DNA of 32,129 nucleotides from Roseofilum reptotaenium CS-1145 (GTDB lineage: Bacteria > Cyanobacteriota > Cyanobacteriia > Cyanobacteriales > Desertifilaceae): positions 1 through 32,129 of the forward strand of contig NZ_JAQMUE010000093.1 of assembly GCF_028330985.1 (NCBI RefSeq). Direction: 5' to 3'. Position 1 is the stretch's first letter. The number at the start of each line of letters is the position of its first letter. Shown piece after piece: positions 9,544 to 27,592 of the stretch. The notes under the pieces are model-generated. The model worked only from the letters and a program-made list of their open reading frames with translations. It was not told where the DNA came from and made no database searches. A program made the translations under genes and the position numbers.

Positions 9544-10350
9544 ATGTTTGACTTCCTTCCTTTATCCTTAAGTTTATGCCGACGGTGTATGGCGATCGCC
9601 ACGATTACCTCTCTAGTTGGTTTATCCTTAAATTGGGATCTATCTGTGGCGATCGCTCAAACCTCTTCAGAAAGCGAACAAATTGTCTATGTTCCCCAAT
9701 TGCAAGACTGGGAAGACCCACCCCCGGGTCTCCCTAGTCGCCGTGAAAGCGCCGGAAGTCGTACAGGCTGCACGATGAAAGCCGAGACCGGTGGAGAATA
9801 CCAAGCCTTAAGCTCAATTATGCCCAGACATAGCTTTGGGTTGACAACCCAAGCTTATCCTACCCTTTATTTCTATGTTCCTCCCAATCAATCAGAGGTT
9901 GTAGAGTTTGCTTTGGAGGACGAAACGGGTAATGAAGTTTATAAAGTAGGGTTGAGTCTGAAACAACAGTCTGGATTAGTCGCTGTTAATCTTGCTGACT
10001 TACCGAATGCACCAAGCTTAGAGGTCAACCAGGTTTATGTTGGCTATTTTCAATTGAACTGCAATGGACAATGGTTAGATCATGTGGCAACGGGAATCAA
10101 ACGCATTCCGTTAGAGCCAATGCACCAAGAACAATTAACACAAGGGGCGATCGCCGATCAAATTAGATTTTATATCCAAAATGGAATATGGTATGACCTC
10201 CTACAAACCCTGATCGAAGCTTATCCGCATCACCCAAATATTCCTCTGAATTTAAATACCCTATTTTCCACTCAGGCAATTGAACTTGAACATCTACTAC
10301 CCGTGATTAACCCTTCCCAGCCCATTATCCTCATATCCATTAAAAATTAA
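9544..10350 (+). CDS. DUF928 domain protein, exported
   Basis: Cyanobacterial DUF928 protein of unknown function, often next to CHASE2 or TPR proteins in other genomes. From ATG 9544 the protein has an N-terminal signal: MFDFLPLSLSLCRRCMAIA, a hydrophobic core (TITSLVGLSLNW), and a cleavage-like AIA-Q. The mature part shows PPGLPSRRESAGSRTGC, the usual DUF928 beginning, then TQAYPTLYFYVPPNQSEVVE, FALEDETGNEVYKVGLSL and a conserved FQLNCNGQW region. An in-frame GTG at 9511 would add 11 residues; ATG 9544 is preferred because GGTGGA lies about 9 bases upstream and it gives a cleaner signal peptide. It probably acts in the periplasm or at the outer membrane. Confidence 0.75.
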   Translation: MFDFLPLSLSLCRRCMAIATITSLVGLSLNWDLSVAIAQTSSESEQIVYVPQLQDWEDPPPGLPSRRESAGSRTGCTMKAETGGEYQALSSIMPRHSFGLTTQAYPTLYFYVPPNQSEVVEFALEDETGNEVYKVGLSLKQQSGLVAVNLADLPNAPSLEVNQVYVGYFQLNCNGQWLDHVATGIKRIPLEPMHQEQLTQGAIADQIRFYIQNGIWYDLLQTLIEAYPHHPNIPLNLNTLFSTQAIELEHLLPVINPSQPIILISIKN

Positions 10351-23657: not shown

Positions 23658-23999
23658 ATGACAGCCAATCGACTGCCCAACCCTGAAAATGCCATTATTG
23701 AAGATGCAAAGCTGGCTGGCTATTGTCTTAATCCGAATCATGTAGATGGTAAGCATAAAGCTCGCGTCTTTGCATCTGCTTTGGACTTAACTCTTGAAAA
23801 TTCTGACGAACTCAAACAAGCTCTGCTATTCGCTGTTAAAAGTTATGATGCTATTCCTGACAAAGCTAATGCTTATGGACAAAAATATATTATTGATTTT
23901 TATTATACGCGAGGTGATAAAACCGCTACAATTCACAGTGTGTGGATGGTACGCAACAACGAAAACATTCCTCGTTTAGTGACTTGCTATATTCTTTAA
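23658..23999 (+). CDS. DUF6883 domain protein, candidate toxin of a toxin/antitoxin-like pair
   Basis: 113-aa protein matching the DUF6883 family: LPNPENAIIEDAKLAGYCLN, then GKHKARVFASALDLTLEN, AVKSYDAIPDKANAYGQKY and a strand-rich C-terminus with TATIHSVWMVRNNENIPRL and VTCYIL. In other bacteria this domain occurs as a single small gene or at the end of polymorphic toxins, so a toxic activity is plausible; no catalytic residue can be assigned with certainty. The next gene begins 13 bp later, the usual spacing of a two-gene module. Confidence 0.65.
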   Translation: MTANRLPNPENAIIEDAKLAGYCLNPNHVDGKHKARVFASALDLTLENSDELKQALLFAVKSYDAIPDKANAYGQKYIIDFYYTRGDKTATIHSVWMVRNNENIPRLVTCYIL

Positions 24000-24012
24000 T
24001 GGAGCATAGACT

Positions 24013-24231
24013 ATGAAACTTCTAGATGTGGTTGCCTTACTCGAAAATTTACCAGAACTGGGACTCTATCGAGGGCAAGTTGGAACCATTGTCGAACAAT
24101 ATGAACCTCAAGTGTTTGAAGTGGAATTTAGCGATAATGACGGGAAAGCCTATGCTATCGAGACCCTCAGTAAACATCAACTCATGGTACTGTATCACCA
24201 TCCGATAAATCCTGAAAAAATAGCTATTTGA
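24013..24231 (+). CDS. DUF4926 domain protein, candidate immunity/antitoxin partner
   Basis: 72-aa protein of the DUF4926 family: MKLLDVVALLENLPELGLYR, then GQVGTIVEQYEPQVFEVEF and SDNDGKAYAIETLSKHQLM. The all-beta, SH3-like wording is typical. DUF4926 genes commonly follow DUF6883 genes in cyanobacteria, as here with 13 bp between them, and the pair behaves in its layout like a toxin and its partner. Which member is toxic, if either, is not established. The gene is followed by about 190 bp of non-coding AT-rich DNA before the stop of the convergent CHAT gene. Confidence 0.65.
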   Translation: MKLLDVVALLENLPELGLYRGQVGTIVEQYEPQVFEVEFSDNDGKAYAIETLSKHQLMVLYHHPINPEKIAI

Positions 24232-24420
24232 ATCACCAACAAGAAGCAACTTATTTTCTACCAAGGCAACAGGTAATAAAATACTGAAAGCCTAGGAATA
24301 CTCGACTAAATGGATTAATAATAAATTTTAATTTTCTTGTGAGTTCCATATTTTTTAAAATCTAAGAAAGAGATAAAAAAAGGAGTGAGTATCCCAACTC
24401 GCCGCCTTCCCCACCTAACA

Positions 24421-27252
24421 TTATCCCCCCCATAATCGCGGCAGATGACCTCGTTGTGAGTTTTTATTAAAAGTGAATTGATGGGGATAGGAGCAATAAG
24501 AGCCATGCTTGCGCCAACCAACATACTCTGCCAACTTTTGAAAATTCCCGTGATCATACCCTGCGAATTTACCTCCTTTGTTAAGCCAGATTTCTTTTTG
24601 AATGCTAAAACCAAACTGCTCACCGCTATACTTGACCCATAATCGATCAATTTTCTCTAGGTCTTTAGAAGGAAAGTCTATGTAGAGATCGCGGACACTA
24701 TCTTTATTTTCTAACACCATAATTTGATAAAAAATAAATGTTGTTTCTTCATTTGCCTCATACCAATTCTCTTCTTGTAATAAGGTTTCTAGTCTCTCAC
24801 AAAATGTCTCTTCAGAGCATTTATCTTTAGACTTTCTCAGTTCCCACTGAAATCCGCTATCTGCTTCACAGTTTGACAGAAAATGACGCATTTTCTCGAA
24901 CCCTTCCCGAAATCGTTCGGGATTACCTTTCTCGGCAAACTTTAAGCGAAATATCTCTTGCCATTGCCCTTGATTTTTATTTTCTATATTTGCCCACAAC
25001 TCAGTTAATGCAGCCCAAGCTTTTTGGTATAGACGATAAAGCTTGTCTGTATCTTCTGGTAGCCGGACTGCTGGAAAAATCTGGGATAAATTCTGTGAAA
25101 CTCGATACTCTCGCTTGCCTTCTTTCAAGTGATGGCTCACCTCAATTAATCCAAAATTAATCGCTCGTTTAATCTGTTTTTGTTCGTCCTCTCTACTCGA
25201 TAATTGTCCTTTACAGACTGCTGTTAACGCTGCCATCGGCACGTTAATTTCATAAATAGAACAAGCGCTGATAATTTTGGCTAAGGCATTGTCAACGGGT
25301 GGGTAGAGATCCCCCTCCCAAATAATGCTCCATTTCCATTTCTCTGGATGATTTTCCCATTCTGTTAATATCTCTTCGGCATTTGCTTGAGACAATACAT
25401 CCTTGTTTAACATTTCCAACAAGCGAGGATTGCCAGCCGAAAGAGTGAGAGTGCGTTGCAGCAACTCTTCGTCTAGTTCTGCCGAACTAAAGTGTTCTAA
25501 ACGTCGCAACTTCTTCTGAAGGTCGGCATGATGGAAACTATCCAACGGTTGAATAAAAAACTTATCTAATCCCTGCCAATCAAACTGATAGCGACAGGTG
25601 ATAATAATTCGGTGTTCGGTTCCAGCACTCTCAATGGCCCAAACCAAGGCCTCCAAAACTCTCGCAGCACTCGGTTGTAGCCTGTACTGTTCTCCTTTTA
25701 GCTCTAAACTCCACTCAAAGTCATCCAGTACCAGTAAAAACGGCTGCTGACGGGTGGTCAGAAATACATTCCGCAGGCGATATTTTAGCTCCTCAGTTCC
25801 CTCTCGAAGTTCTTGACGCTCTTCGGCACTTCCCAACTGGTCGCAGAGTTTACGAACTAGGCTCGGTTCAGCGATGGGTTGGCTCTTACGTCCCCAAATA
25901 ATGGCTTGAGGGAAGTATGATGAAAGACGATCGCATAATCGAGCGGCGATCGCACTTTTTCCCCATCCTCCCATACCCGCGAGCATCACCCCAACTTTCC
26001 TATTATCTGGAGATTTAAGCACCCGCAAGCAATTTTGCAACTGACGACGACGACCCACAAACTCCTTGCGGGGTATCAGGGGAAGTTCTTGGGTTTGTTC
26101 ATCAATAAATTTGGGCTGCACAGAAGATGGTGGAGCAGGTTCCCGTCGTCCCTCTCTGCTGTTGCGCTTGGTGACCAAAGCACCAGGAAGCGTGGAGGTA
26201 TACAACCGCAATAAATGCCATTGCTTCCCGCAAAGTTTATCCGATCTCGTTTCACCTTGGGTTAAACTTGCCTGTTTCAAGAGAAGTTGATAGGTTCGAC
26301 CCAAAGCTTCTACTAATGTTTGACCGGCTGAAAGTTCCCCATAGAGAGTCGCTGCTGCGGCTGAAGCTTCCGCATCGTTAACCCGGTTTCCCCATCCCAA
26401 AACCGCCATCACTCCATCTTGAACCAACGCTTCAGCCATGGAAAATACAGTCTGCTCATTAGAATATCCGGTTTGGCAACCCGACAAAAATACCAACGGA
26501 GAATGGTTATAGGGCAAAACATCAGCAATATCCCGACTATCACAATCTCGGCGGTCTCCATACTCATCTTCCGTGAGAAAATAAGGCGTTTCATCGGTAA
26601 TCGTTGCATGACCGGTTAAATGAACAATATCAAAGGGGTCGCTTTCGGCATCAATCAACTCTTGCAACTCGTCGAGACAACCACTTTCTTCCACTACCAA
26701 GCGCAGGTCTTTAGCCATCCCTTTCGTTGCCGTTAAAATTTGTCCTTCTTCTGCCTCAAAATCCAGCACCCGATCAAAATTCCGTGGTGACGAAGCCATA
26801 AACAGCAGATTCAAAAAGCGAGGTTTGGGGTCTTCTTCGACTCGGAGCTGGTCGTGTTCTTGTACCCAACGCACTGGCACAATGGGAGGTCGGCATTCTA
26901 CCAAGAATCGTTTCCCGTTATGCAAAACTTCCCAAGGCAAATTCGCTAACCTCCCCGATGTGGAAATGGCCAGAACAATTTGCCTTCCGCGACTGTTCCG
27001 AGGCGGTTTATCGAGAGCTGATTGTAAAAACCGCTCTCCTCCATCCAACCAGTTAAACAGTCGTTGCCCTATTTTCTGATAGGGTGTGGGCAGTGAGGTG
27101 TAATATTCTTTCTCTACTTGTTCAAGCAATTCTTCAATCTCAGCCAAAGGCCGTATCCGTTCCTGTGCCTGATTGGGGTTATCCCAGAAGAACCGAAACC
27201 GAGCCTGATTTTCTCCCACAGGAGTCAATTCAATATGGAGAATTTGAGCCAT
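24421..27252 (-). CDS. CHAT protease - STAND NTPase - GUN4 fusion protein
   Basis: Large multi-domain switch protein (943 aa from ATG 27252). An N-terminal CHAT caspase-like domain (about 90-360) has the dyad His215 in VHLTGHATITDE and Cys259 in VFLSGCQTGYSN. A linker with EFVGRRRQL leads to a STAND/NB-ARC-like NTPase: Walker A AGMGGWGKSA (425-434), Walker B FLLVLDDFEW (D510, D511), sensor IIITCRYQF, GxP-like SAGNPRLLEML. A winged-helix-like part follows (about 650-730). The tail (about 818-940) matches GUN4: LLQEENWYEANEETTFIF, DLEKIDRLWVKYSGEQFGFS, VGWRKHG, GHLPRLW. GUN4 binds Mg-porphyrins or bilins in chlorophyll control. An upstream TTG at 27354 would overlap the preceding gene, so ATG 27252 is preferred. 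It lies 28 bp after an EACC1-like gene. No TPR or WD sensor repeats are present, so GUN4 occupies the sensor or effector end. Confidence 0.85.
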   Translation of the reverse strand: MAQILHIELTPVGENQARFRFFWDNPNQAQERIRPLAEIEELLEQVEKEYYTSLPTPYQKIGQRLFNWLDGGERFLQSALDKPPRNSRGRQIVLAISTSGRLANLPWEVLHNGKRFLVECRPPIVPVRWVQEHDQLRVEEDPKPRFLNLLFMASSPRNFDRVLDFEAEEGQILTATKGMAKDLRLVVEESGCLDELQELIDAESDPFDIVHLTGHATITDETPYFLTEDEYGDRRDCDSRDIADVLPYNHSPLVFLSGCQTGYSNEQTVFSMAEALVQDGVMAVLGWGNRVNDAEASAAAATLYGELSAGQTLVEALGRTYQLLLKQASLTQGETRSDKLCGKQWHLLRLYTSTLPGALVTKRNSREGRREPAPPSSVQPKFIDEQTQELPLIPRKEFVGRRRQLQNCLRVLKSPDNRKVGVMLAGMGGWGKSAIAARLCDRLSSYFPQAIIWGRKSQPIAEPSLVRKLCDQLGSAEERQELREGTEELKYRLRNVFLTTRQQPFLLVLDDFEWSLELKGEQYRLQPSAARVLEALVWAIESAGTEHRIIITCRYQFDWQGLDKFFIQPLDSFHHADLQKKLRRLEHFSSAELDEELLQRTLTLSAGNPRLLEMLNKDVLSQANAEEILTEWENHPEKWKWSIIWEGDLYPPVDNALAKIISACSIYEINVPMAALTAVCKGQLSSREDEQKQIKRAINFGLIEVSHHLKEGKREYRVSQNLSQIFPAVRLPEDTDKLYRLYQKAWAALTELWANIENKNQGQWQEIFRLKFAEKGNPERFREGFEKMRHFLSNCEADSGFQWELRKSKDKCSEETFCERLETLLQEENWYEANEETTFIFYQIMVLENKDSVRDLYIDFPSKDLEKIDRLWVKYSGEQFGFSIQKEIWLNKGGKFAGYDHGNFQKLAEYVGWRKHGSYCSYPHQFTFNKNSQRGHLPRLWGG

Positions 27253-27280
27253 TTGAGAATTAACAATGAATACTTTTAGT

Positions 27281-27592
27281 TTACTCCAAGAGTTCTTTAA
27301 TCTGCTCGATTGTGGCATCTTTGAGCAGCAAGCGGCGACCGTCATCGGTGACAATCATGACTTTCTCCAGCTTGCGTCCTGAGTCTTTCTTCTGGGACTT
27401 CTGATACCACTCGTAGAGTTGCTTGGCGATCGCCATTGTTCCCCCGACAATACCCACAATAGTGGCGATTGTGGTTAATACCTCCGCTCTCTGGGGTTCA
27501 TCGAGGGTTTCATAACTCCCCTCAATCCCAGCAATATTGAGTAACTCCTCAGTTGCTATCTCTGCATCTTGACCAACAATTTCAATCTTCAT
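27281..27592 (-). CDS. EACC1-like small protein (effector-associated constant component)
   Basis: 103-aa protein. The N-terminal strand and helix (MKIEIVGQDAEIATEELLNI) are followed by a glycine-rich hydrophobic segment (about 40-58, TIATIVGIVGGTMAIAKQL), a short charged linker and a C-terminal strand-helix unit (KVMIVTDDGRRLLLKDATIE). This order fits EACC1, the constant component found beside diverse NTP-dependent conflict-system effectors with CHAT, trypsin-like or STAND domains. It is thought to link or hold the effector, perhaps at a membrane. It is the first gene of a two-gene unit, 28 bp before the CHAT-STAND-GUN4 gene. A GGGAGA ribosome-binding site (27605-27600) precedes ATG 27592. 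Confidence 0.72.
   Translation of the reverse strand: MKIEIVGQDAEIATEELLNIAGIEGSYETLDEPQRAEVLTTIATIVGIVGGTMAIAKQLYEWYQKSQKKDSGRKLEKVMIVTDDGRRLLLKDATIEQIKELLE

Follow-up and report, generated by a model that had tools for sequence, protein, structure and literature searches.

Two-gene conflict systems with a small constant 5' gene have been described as System 4 of the EACC1 systems (Kaur et al., 2020, PMC7159879), where, in the parts of that paper available to us, the 3' gene starts with a caspase-superfamily protease and ends in an exchangeable C-terminus, with STAND among the partners. A comparable order of N-terminal effector, NTPase switch and C-terminal sensor is seen in antiviral STAND NTPases, plant NLRs and the TPR-CHAT protein of Craspase (PMC10907252), and in STAND and ternary conflict proteins served by diversity-generating retroelements (DGRs) the C-terminal sensor varies while the rest is constant (PMC10907252, PMC7517822; both in the sections consulted). 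Here we describe a locus of the cyanobacterium Roseofilum reptotaenium CS-1145, in which a small EACC1-like gene is followed by a gene for a CHAT-STAND-GUN4 protein; it lies in contig NZ_JAQMUE010000093.1 of assembly GCF_028330985.1, analysed over positions 1 to 32,129 of the forward strand (32,129 nucleotides, hereafter the window). Sequence comparison with relatives reveals the domains of this protein, the pairing of the two genes, an exchange of TPR and GUN4 C-termini, loss of the LxNxLR/R214 ligand segment of GUN4, a hypervariable tract in its place that is read through in all three frames, a conserved 3' DNA element and, in other genomes, linkage to a gene for an HUH endonuclease. We see an even chance that the product acts in conflict in the manner of an NLR, with a GUN4 sensor that undergoes diversification and is not gated by pigment; where its described counterparts carry TPR or LRR, the window system carries GUN4 with a hypervariable tract.

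The two genes and the domains of the large protein are located as follows.

27281..27592, minus strand: EACC1-like small gene, 103 aa, first of the pair (open reading frame, alignment of family A1, sub-threshold PF19953 match in relatives, structure model)
24421..27252, minus strand: CHAT-STAND-GUN4 gene, 943 aa (open reading frame, Pfam, homologue alignment, structure model)
26272..27075, minus strand: CHAT protease domain with the catalytic pair H215/C259 (Pfam CHAT 60-327, genome-level match, invariance in 11 homologues)
25702..26064, minus strand: STAND/NB-ARC NTPase core with Walker A 426-433 and D510/D511 (Pfam AAA_16 397-517 and NB-ARC 412-512, alignment)
24436..24798, minus strand: GUN4 domain, paralog type (Pfam GUN4 819-939, genome-level match, PDB GUN4 matches)

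The coding part of the small gene occupies 27284-27592 (minus strand, stop at 27281), and after a gap of 28 bp the 943-aa frame runs over 24424-27252 (minus strand), closed by the stop codon at 24423-24421. An earlier note, made from the letters alone, had read this arrangement as an EACC1-like gene, 28 bp and a CHAT-STAND-GUN4 protein, and the open reading frames and Pfam confirm it: the profile search suggested there places CHAT (60-327, E 2.8e-22), AAA_16 (397-517, E 7.7e-12), NB-ARC (412-512, E 5.5e-8) and GUN4 (819-939, E 5e-28) in the 943-aa protein, all above Pfam cut-offs. The dyad H215/C259, the Walker A motif (G426..K432 S433) and D510/D511, also named in the note, are unchanged across 11 aligned homologues. 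The protein has a CHAT fold with both His and Cys (Pfam, alignment, structure match), which makes it a predicted protease, and an NTPase fold with the Walker A and B motifs of STAND/NB-ARC proteins. Its full-length model is of middling quality (mean pLDDT, the predicted local distance difference score, 69.8; residues 920-943 below 50) and matches SAVED-CHAT, TPR-CHAT (Craspase) and plant NLR resistosomes in PDB with E 2e-7 to 1e-5, at low TM-scores, as single domains align, domain by domain. In PADLOC only the GUN4 part of the large protein finds a match, namely the GUN4 end of PD-T4-6. Contig C80 of the same genome carries the gene pair a second time, with the small protein 93% and the large protein 62% identical. 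The sequence supports a conflict-system module of two genes, caspase-like and regulated by STAND, in which GUN4 takes the sensor's place.

The EACC1 label of the earlier note stands as regards position, layout and pairing, but the small protein does not reach the PF19953 cut-off: it gives no match to Pfam EACC1 (PF19953), two of 22 relatives match it collinearly below cut-off (best E 0.0052), and hhalign of the small-protein profile against cyanobacterial EACC1-like proteins gives a weak E of 0.18. These 22 aligned homologues constitute family A1, leaving out L019 (with a stop), L031 (a near copy) and L039-L044 (weak or cut matches). Since its own match is absent and those of the relatives are sub-threshold, we call the small protein EACC1-like by position and layout. 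The AlphaFold2 model (pLDDT 87) has an alpha+beta fold without a transmembrane helix; a TATIVGIVGGT-like small-residue patch is present, the model having a strand at 39-48 and a helix at 52-68 in a soluble fold, with the glycine-rich stretch modelled as strand and soluble helix. A fold search with this model against PDB yields nothing at E<=0.001, the weak matches being of the ferredoxin/ACT/PII type. The score below the EACC1 cut-off distinguishes the window protein from System 4, and the modelled fold without a transmembrane helix may do so as well; System 4 is the one which the parts of PMC7159879 at hand describe as actinobacterial and sporadically proteobacterial, whereas the present system is cyanobacterial; those parts contain no EACC1 setting with a GUN4 C-terminus.

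At E<=0.01 the small protein finds matches in 29 out of 386 cyanobacterial genomes, including a few fragments, and the distribution is patchy. A scan of GTDB with the small protein yielded 104 relatives, of which 80 named loci were kept, all read as cyanobacterial from their titles. The large protein is matched too at 76 of these 80 loci (the exceptions are L104, L113, L118 and L149; at L126 its match lies on the opposite side of the small gene), so the pairing in relatives on which the earlier note relied is borne out, and, as in EACC1 systems, the small gene and the caspase-superfamily gene that it directly precedes are conserved together. C-termini could be typed at 48 of the 80 loci, with 39 TPR, a count taken from Pfam, and nine GUN4 (L077-L081, L084, L090, L100 and L136), the profile behind the nine having been built partly from the same genes. 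This census left out loci cut by contig ends or with broken, short or missing frames, among loci outside it being L082, L085, L086 and L133, whose frames are broken or partial and show GUN4 similarity, and L101, which has masked bases. The protease protein thus has the variable C-terminus of EACC1 systems, and from these counts GUN4 occupies the place of TPR sensors in STAND proteins. Other cyanobacterial EACC1-like small genes directly 5' of caspase-like genes were seen at L156:1489-1866 and L349:1426-2339, and represent another form of this two-gene arrangement in cyanobacteria.

The CHAT part also has a weak match to NCBIfam HetF (E 4.9e-6; 25.1 bits, where the cut-off is 1200), and the genome holds 32 CHAT match segments along with 15 GUN4 matches, one with an internal stop. 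The HetF match and the number of CHAT segments would suit a HetF-like CHAT protease of cyanobacterial differentiation, acting in development or housekeeping and not in defence; such a regulator is very unlikely in view of the patchy distribution, the C-terminal exchange, the hypervariable tail described below, and the finding of GUN4 relatives on 29 plasmid records.

The GUN4 domain of the window protein matches 1z3x, 1y6i and other GUN4 structures in PDB. According to the available portions of the literature, F196 and R214 of Synechocystis GUN4 contribute to porphyrin binding, the binding residues being located in helix alpha2 and the alpha6/alpha7 loop (PMC8967248), and in Chlamydomonas a single LxNxLR substitution abolishes bilin binding (PMC10156173). 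The window protein ends GHLPRLWGG*, five residues past GHLP, and the LxNxLR/R214 segment is therefore absent: N211, L213, R214 and R217 (Synechocystis numbering) have no counterpart, while the F196 equivalent is retained and W192 is replaced by Y (alignment read by eye). The canonical GUN4 of the same genome retains GHLPLTNQLRGVR, as do 1y6i and 1z3x. In this the window domain is of the type of the GUN4 paralogs, a clade of which no member keeps the Asn of LxNxLR (PMC10156173, as far as the paper was available); the parts of that paper seen mention neither a hypervariable tract nor a 3' element, which set the present genes apart.

The earlier note had suggested that the GUN4 end could respond to porphyrin or bilin, so that changes in pigment pools under stress would switch the protease, adding that it knew of no functional account of the combination. 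The idea of GUN4 as a tetrapyrrole sensor in cyanobacterial conflict systems is, in general form, already in print (PMC7159879, in the part available), and together with the GUN4 match (E 5e-28) and the retained F196 equivalent it is what speaks for such a gate. Of the findings that the note said would tell against it, failure of the GUN4 match at the C-terminus and absence of the pairing in relatives did not occur, but pocket residues are lost in part. The protein has the GUN4 domain without the LxNxLR/R214 residues, loss of LxNxLR is reported for GUN4 paralogs (PMC10156173, same portions), and the place of the ligand is hypervariable in relatives, which a fixed pigment pocket would hardly tolerate. 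Gating of the window protein by tetrapyrroles is accordingly not supported by its sequence, and we regard it as decidedly unlikely, though a different pocket is conceivable.

The end of the GUN4-coding part and its 3' flank comprise three adjoining parts.

24439..24450, minus strand: GHLP codons, upstream border of the hypervariable tract (sequence reading)
24382..24438, minus strand: hypervariable tract (HVT), 57 nt (class defined on relatives)
24268..24381, minus strand: conserved 3' DNA element, degenerate copy (alignment with HUH-linked elements and with L076)

Homologues of the window protein are alignable up to the LP codons and hardly beyond, seven of 11 rows ending in an LLSR-like sequence. 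At the DNA level this end is the motif CTCTTCTCTCGCG(TC/CA)GAGACTTGTAA, which has the same form whichever frame is read, and near relatives of the window gene carry both tract and element. The 20-base motif core has two matches in the genome of the window at <=3 mismatches, both at GUN4 ends; in 37 of 146 cyanobacterial genomes it occurs at 69 places, compared to eight for a reversed control (hand count). Among 31 motif loci read, 25 are GUN4 ends (24 plus L189), and 23 of 27 motif matches in 20 further stretches lie within a reading frame that has GUN4 motifs. In a collection of 152 GUN4 frames, 75 bear the motif at <=7 mismatches, these genes having been collected largely via the motif, and one of them at least matching by chance (L230, canonical gun4, seven mismatches).

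All three frames are used at the motif, in 23, 26 and 24 of the 73 genes whose frame reaches it, and in 57 clusters at 85% identity, where 18, 16 and 17 are single-frame and six mixed. The three readings are L-F-S-R-V-E-T-C, L-L-S-R-R-D-L and S-L-A-S-R-L-V-N-C; counted from the motif start, their stops come after 30, 23 and 37 nt, a distance held in 22/24, 25/27 and 18/24 genes, respectively (65/75 in all, hand count). Sequencing frameshifts are excluded as the source of this pattern, as each frame has its own stop distance.

The hypervariability of the tract is seen in paralogues. The GUN4 bodies of L243/L270 are 97.9% identical over 329 nt, those of the L205 pair 93.7%, and those of L245/L261 89.1%, while in all three pairs the tracts are unalignable; the 3' flank is near-identical over approximately 180-300 nt in the L205 pair and L245/L261, and in L243/L270 over about the first 40 nt only. 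A further pair, L169/L206, has one broken copy and is not counted as a clean case. Ordinary drift of tails is excluded, since bodies up to 98% identical bracket unalignable tracts, as do long 3' flanks in two of the three intact pairs.

Tract statistics are based on 65 or 66 of the 75 motif genes. The 65 tracts (4149 nt, lengths 21-153 nt) are rich in G (.379) and T (.319) compared to A (.183) and C (.119), with nearly equal composition at the three codon positions, whereas A constitutes.322 in GUN4 bodies and.310 in 3' flanks. The frame in use is open in 65 of 66 tracts, compared to 27.7 +/- 3.4 in shuffles, and the two unused frames are open 33 and 32 times. The open used frame and the absence of codon-position structure indicate that tracts are generally subject to translation and filtering, although in sequence they resemble random DNA. 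Among the 65 tracts, L179/L201 is the sole homologous pair, five other pairs sharing 14-22 nt.

We could not match this tract to any known kind of diversification. DGRs are rejected as its source, as the window contig is without a reverse transcriptase and the tract without fixed length or positions: the DGR pattern differs from a tract that varies between 21 and 153 nt, is G/T-rich and is used in all three frames. The search for reverse transcriptases, which found none on the window contig and three RVT_1 matches elsewhere in the genome, did not extend to the flanks of other GUN4 loci, one of which, L308, holds a group II intron reverse transcriptase. Nor is there a template repeat of fixed length with adenine-specific changes: one 153-nt tract (one of the 65), searched in four genomes, has no second copy and was found in its own place only, the next best match having E 0.03. 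On contig C88 of the window genome (L164, G000:C88:19677-20318 and flanks) we observe a variable protein of FGE type, a small accessory-like frame and a reverse transcriptase with the DGR motif IGNLTSQ, the locus being an ordinary-looking DGR.

GUN4 with such tails is found in several settings: on kinase-like and TIR-like frames (by eye) and beside MoxR, which fits a shared sensor. On a Nostoc plasmid (L351:3991-5714) CHAT and GUN4 form two adjoining frames, and the GUN4 tail ends LLSRKDL with the motif. At L086 (~9955-10070) a 53-bp direct duplication lies within the GUN4-coding part, upstream of the tract.

Downstream of the tract, between it and the HUH gene where one is linked, lies a conserved element of ~125 nt, its start read with equal frequency in the three frames, ending GATACCTGGCAC or ATTACCTGTT. 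The frequency of this end and of the motif was estimated in a 60-gene GUN4 sample that is not random, being the top of the E-value list minus canonical gun4 and own-genome copies; 54, 52 and 49 of its genes were recognised for the tail, motif and element-end counts, respectively. The element end is present in seven of the 49 GUN4 genes and in none of 27 canonical gun4, with a background of 3.7% per 420 nt. A structured RNA is rejected as the nature of the element: Rfam gave nothing at gathering level on six loci (a sub-threshold match lies elsewhere in the window), and RNAalifold gave no consensus structure on 37 aligned elements, so that the shuffle control for the RNA fold is void. Among the GUN4 paralogues of L205 (G066:C1:1655200-1662800) and L308 we noted a reverse transcriptase of group II intron type and a duplication of the element's 3' half.

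The HUH gene, of ~265 aa with a Y1_Tnp domain, adjoins GUN4 in three of the nine neighbourhoods first inspected, which had mostly been picked as tandem arrays. The three proteins, when aligned, share NHxH, W-E and YIxxNP motifs; with their Y1_Tnp domain, NHxH and YIxxNP they bear the protein motifs of TnpA-REP/RAYT, the gene being no part of the window. A model of the three seeds (A2) detects relatives at E<=1e-30 in 64 genomes out of 291 from the order. GUN4 lies within 1.5 kb in 24 of 30 HUH loci fetched (21 of 27 without the three seeds), and at all 24 the nearest GUN4 is convergent, so that the two genes meet with their 3' ends. As the genomes hold ~7 GUN4 each (219 in 30 genomes), we estimate that chance would account for well under one. 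The GUN4 neighbours of HUH genes were identified with a sequence pattern and not by Pfam, and on a 30-kb stretch of plasmid this pattern produced one false match; of the six HUH loci without GUN4, five are cut on the expected side. On a Cylindrospermopsis plasmid an independent annotation lists MoxR, a GUN4 protein and a convergent transposase in a row. These genes resemble the TnpA-REP (RAYT) genes of REPtrons (PMC6006769, in the part consulted) in the NHxH, W-E and YIxxNP motifs and in lying beside a conserved DNA element, but differ in being the usual convergent neighbour of GUN4, and in that the element is a gene 3' end, whose core has two near-matches in the window genome and is not a high-copy intergenic repeat.

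We tentatively propose, at somewhat less than an even chance, that the ligand end of these GUN4 sensors, whether linked to CHAT-STAND, kinase, TIR or MoxR, is diversified without a reverse transcriptase: the TnpA-REP-like HUH endonuclease would nick the 3' element as a single strand, starting turnover of the tract, which would be replaced by an untemplated, G/T-biased sequence of random length, comparable to the N-regions of V(D)J joining, and the three-frame 3' cap (LxSR, then stop) would let any product be translated. The pair as a whole may be a two-gene defence module built like an NLR, with the small EACC1-like protein as the constant partner, CHAT as the protease effector, the STAND NTPase as the switch, and the C-terminal GUN4 standing in for the TPR sensor of most typed relatives. 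GUN4 would serve as a recognition scaffold and not as a pigment gauge, the segment with the ligand residues having been swapped for the tract; the tract may contact a variable foreign ligand, whose binding would drive oligomerisation and CHAT cleavage of the protein itself, its partner or other proteins.

The same HUH gene and conserved element, sitting exactly at this place, could also mean that the tract arises as a side effect of a TnpA-REP/IS200-like element residing at GUN4 3' ends, a filler left by imprecise cutting and joining and tolerated without a role in sensing. The G/T-rich tracts without codon structure, the closing of all three frames by the element start, and the early stop of some copies, that of the window among them, would agree with it, while frames open far above chance (65/66 vs 27.7) and the attachment of GUN4 of this type to several effectors would not. 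Moreover, the frame-0 reading of the motif (LFSRVETCK) resembles the tails of element-free GUN4, R-[LVIFT]-x-x-C being present in 16 of 33 motif-free genes, so the motif looks like native GUN4 code and not like a foreign end. On balance we hold the by-product explanation to be rather unlikely.

In the window, the tract (57 nt after GHLP; G24 T13 A12 C8) stops the reading frame five residues after its start, with a run of seven G at 24431-24425 just before the stop. The element extends from a motif-like CTCTTTCTTAGATTTTAA (24372-24355) to ATTACCTGTT (24277-24268), and is degenerate, but has this end intact. In comparisons against mononucleotide shuffles it reaches z 3.7 to 5.1 with the HUH-linked L316, L331, L333 and L338, and z 8.9 with the close relative L076. 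The early stop in the tract and the absence of a same-family HUH gene from the genome suggest that the window copy is probably a non-autonomous or resting allele. In L076 (Cyanobacteria bacterium UBA2566; L076:7001-8800), where the small gene is 97% identical to that of the window, an apparent internal deletion has removed STAND and most of GUN4, so that CHAT is now followed by the region of the GUN4 tail. Facing the 3' end of the window GUN4 gene are two small plus-strand genes (23658-24231), putatively DUF6883/DUF4926-like, in a possible toxin-antitoxin-like arrangement.

Several observations weigh against a diversified sensor driven by the HUH gene. In the sample that was not selected by motif only 19 of 52 GUN4 genes have it at <=7 mismatches, only the seven of 49 mentioned above have the element end, and many GUN4 paralogs have ordinary conserved tails. 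The A2 family has no match at E<=1e-30 in the window genome, which has nine other Y1_Tnp matches, and genome G393, holding the diverged L245/L261 pair, has no Y1_Tnp match; the variation observed today therefore does not depend on the presence of the HUH gene. At L342 there is 1.5 kb on the expected side of the HUH gene with no GUN4 seen, and in at least four of the 24 linked loci (L314, L327, L336 and L341) the GUN4 frame stops before the motif. L179/L201, orthologues of two species, have an identical tract, which makes turnover at most episodic, and a donor was not found for the one tract searched. The defence function is carried over from published inference, and the support for a diversified NLR-like sensor is wholly computational.

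Comparison of clonal plasmids says little here, as three identical Fremyella/Tolypothrix plasmid records carry a GUN4 without tract and motif. Nostoc 7120 substrain RE2 is resistant to phage, and its several mutated genes include one for GUN4/kinase (PMC10811720, in the part available), a link to phage defence that is suggestive only.

The idea of GUN4 as a sensor, the EACC1 systems and the DGR-diversified STAND sensors are already published; for the GUN4 tract, the 3' element or the HUH linkage we found no report among the titles and abstract openings of the papers listed in searches, with subscription papers and preprints outside its range. Known targeted diversification of sensors in bacteria is the work of retroelements that keep length and frame, while the GUN4 tract frees length, frame and sequence, and in some genomes a gene for a single-strand-DNA endonuclease adjoins it. 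If this HUH gene drives the change of the tract, bacterial immunity would have a generator of diversity that needs no retroelement, some RAYT proteins would have a possible role for their host, the many cyanobacterial GUN4 paralogs that have lost bilin residues would be accounted for, and culturable strains would allow these systems to be tested directly.

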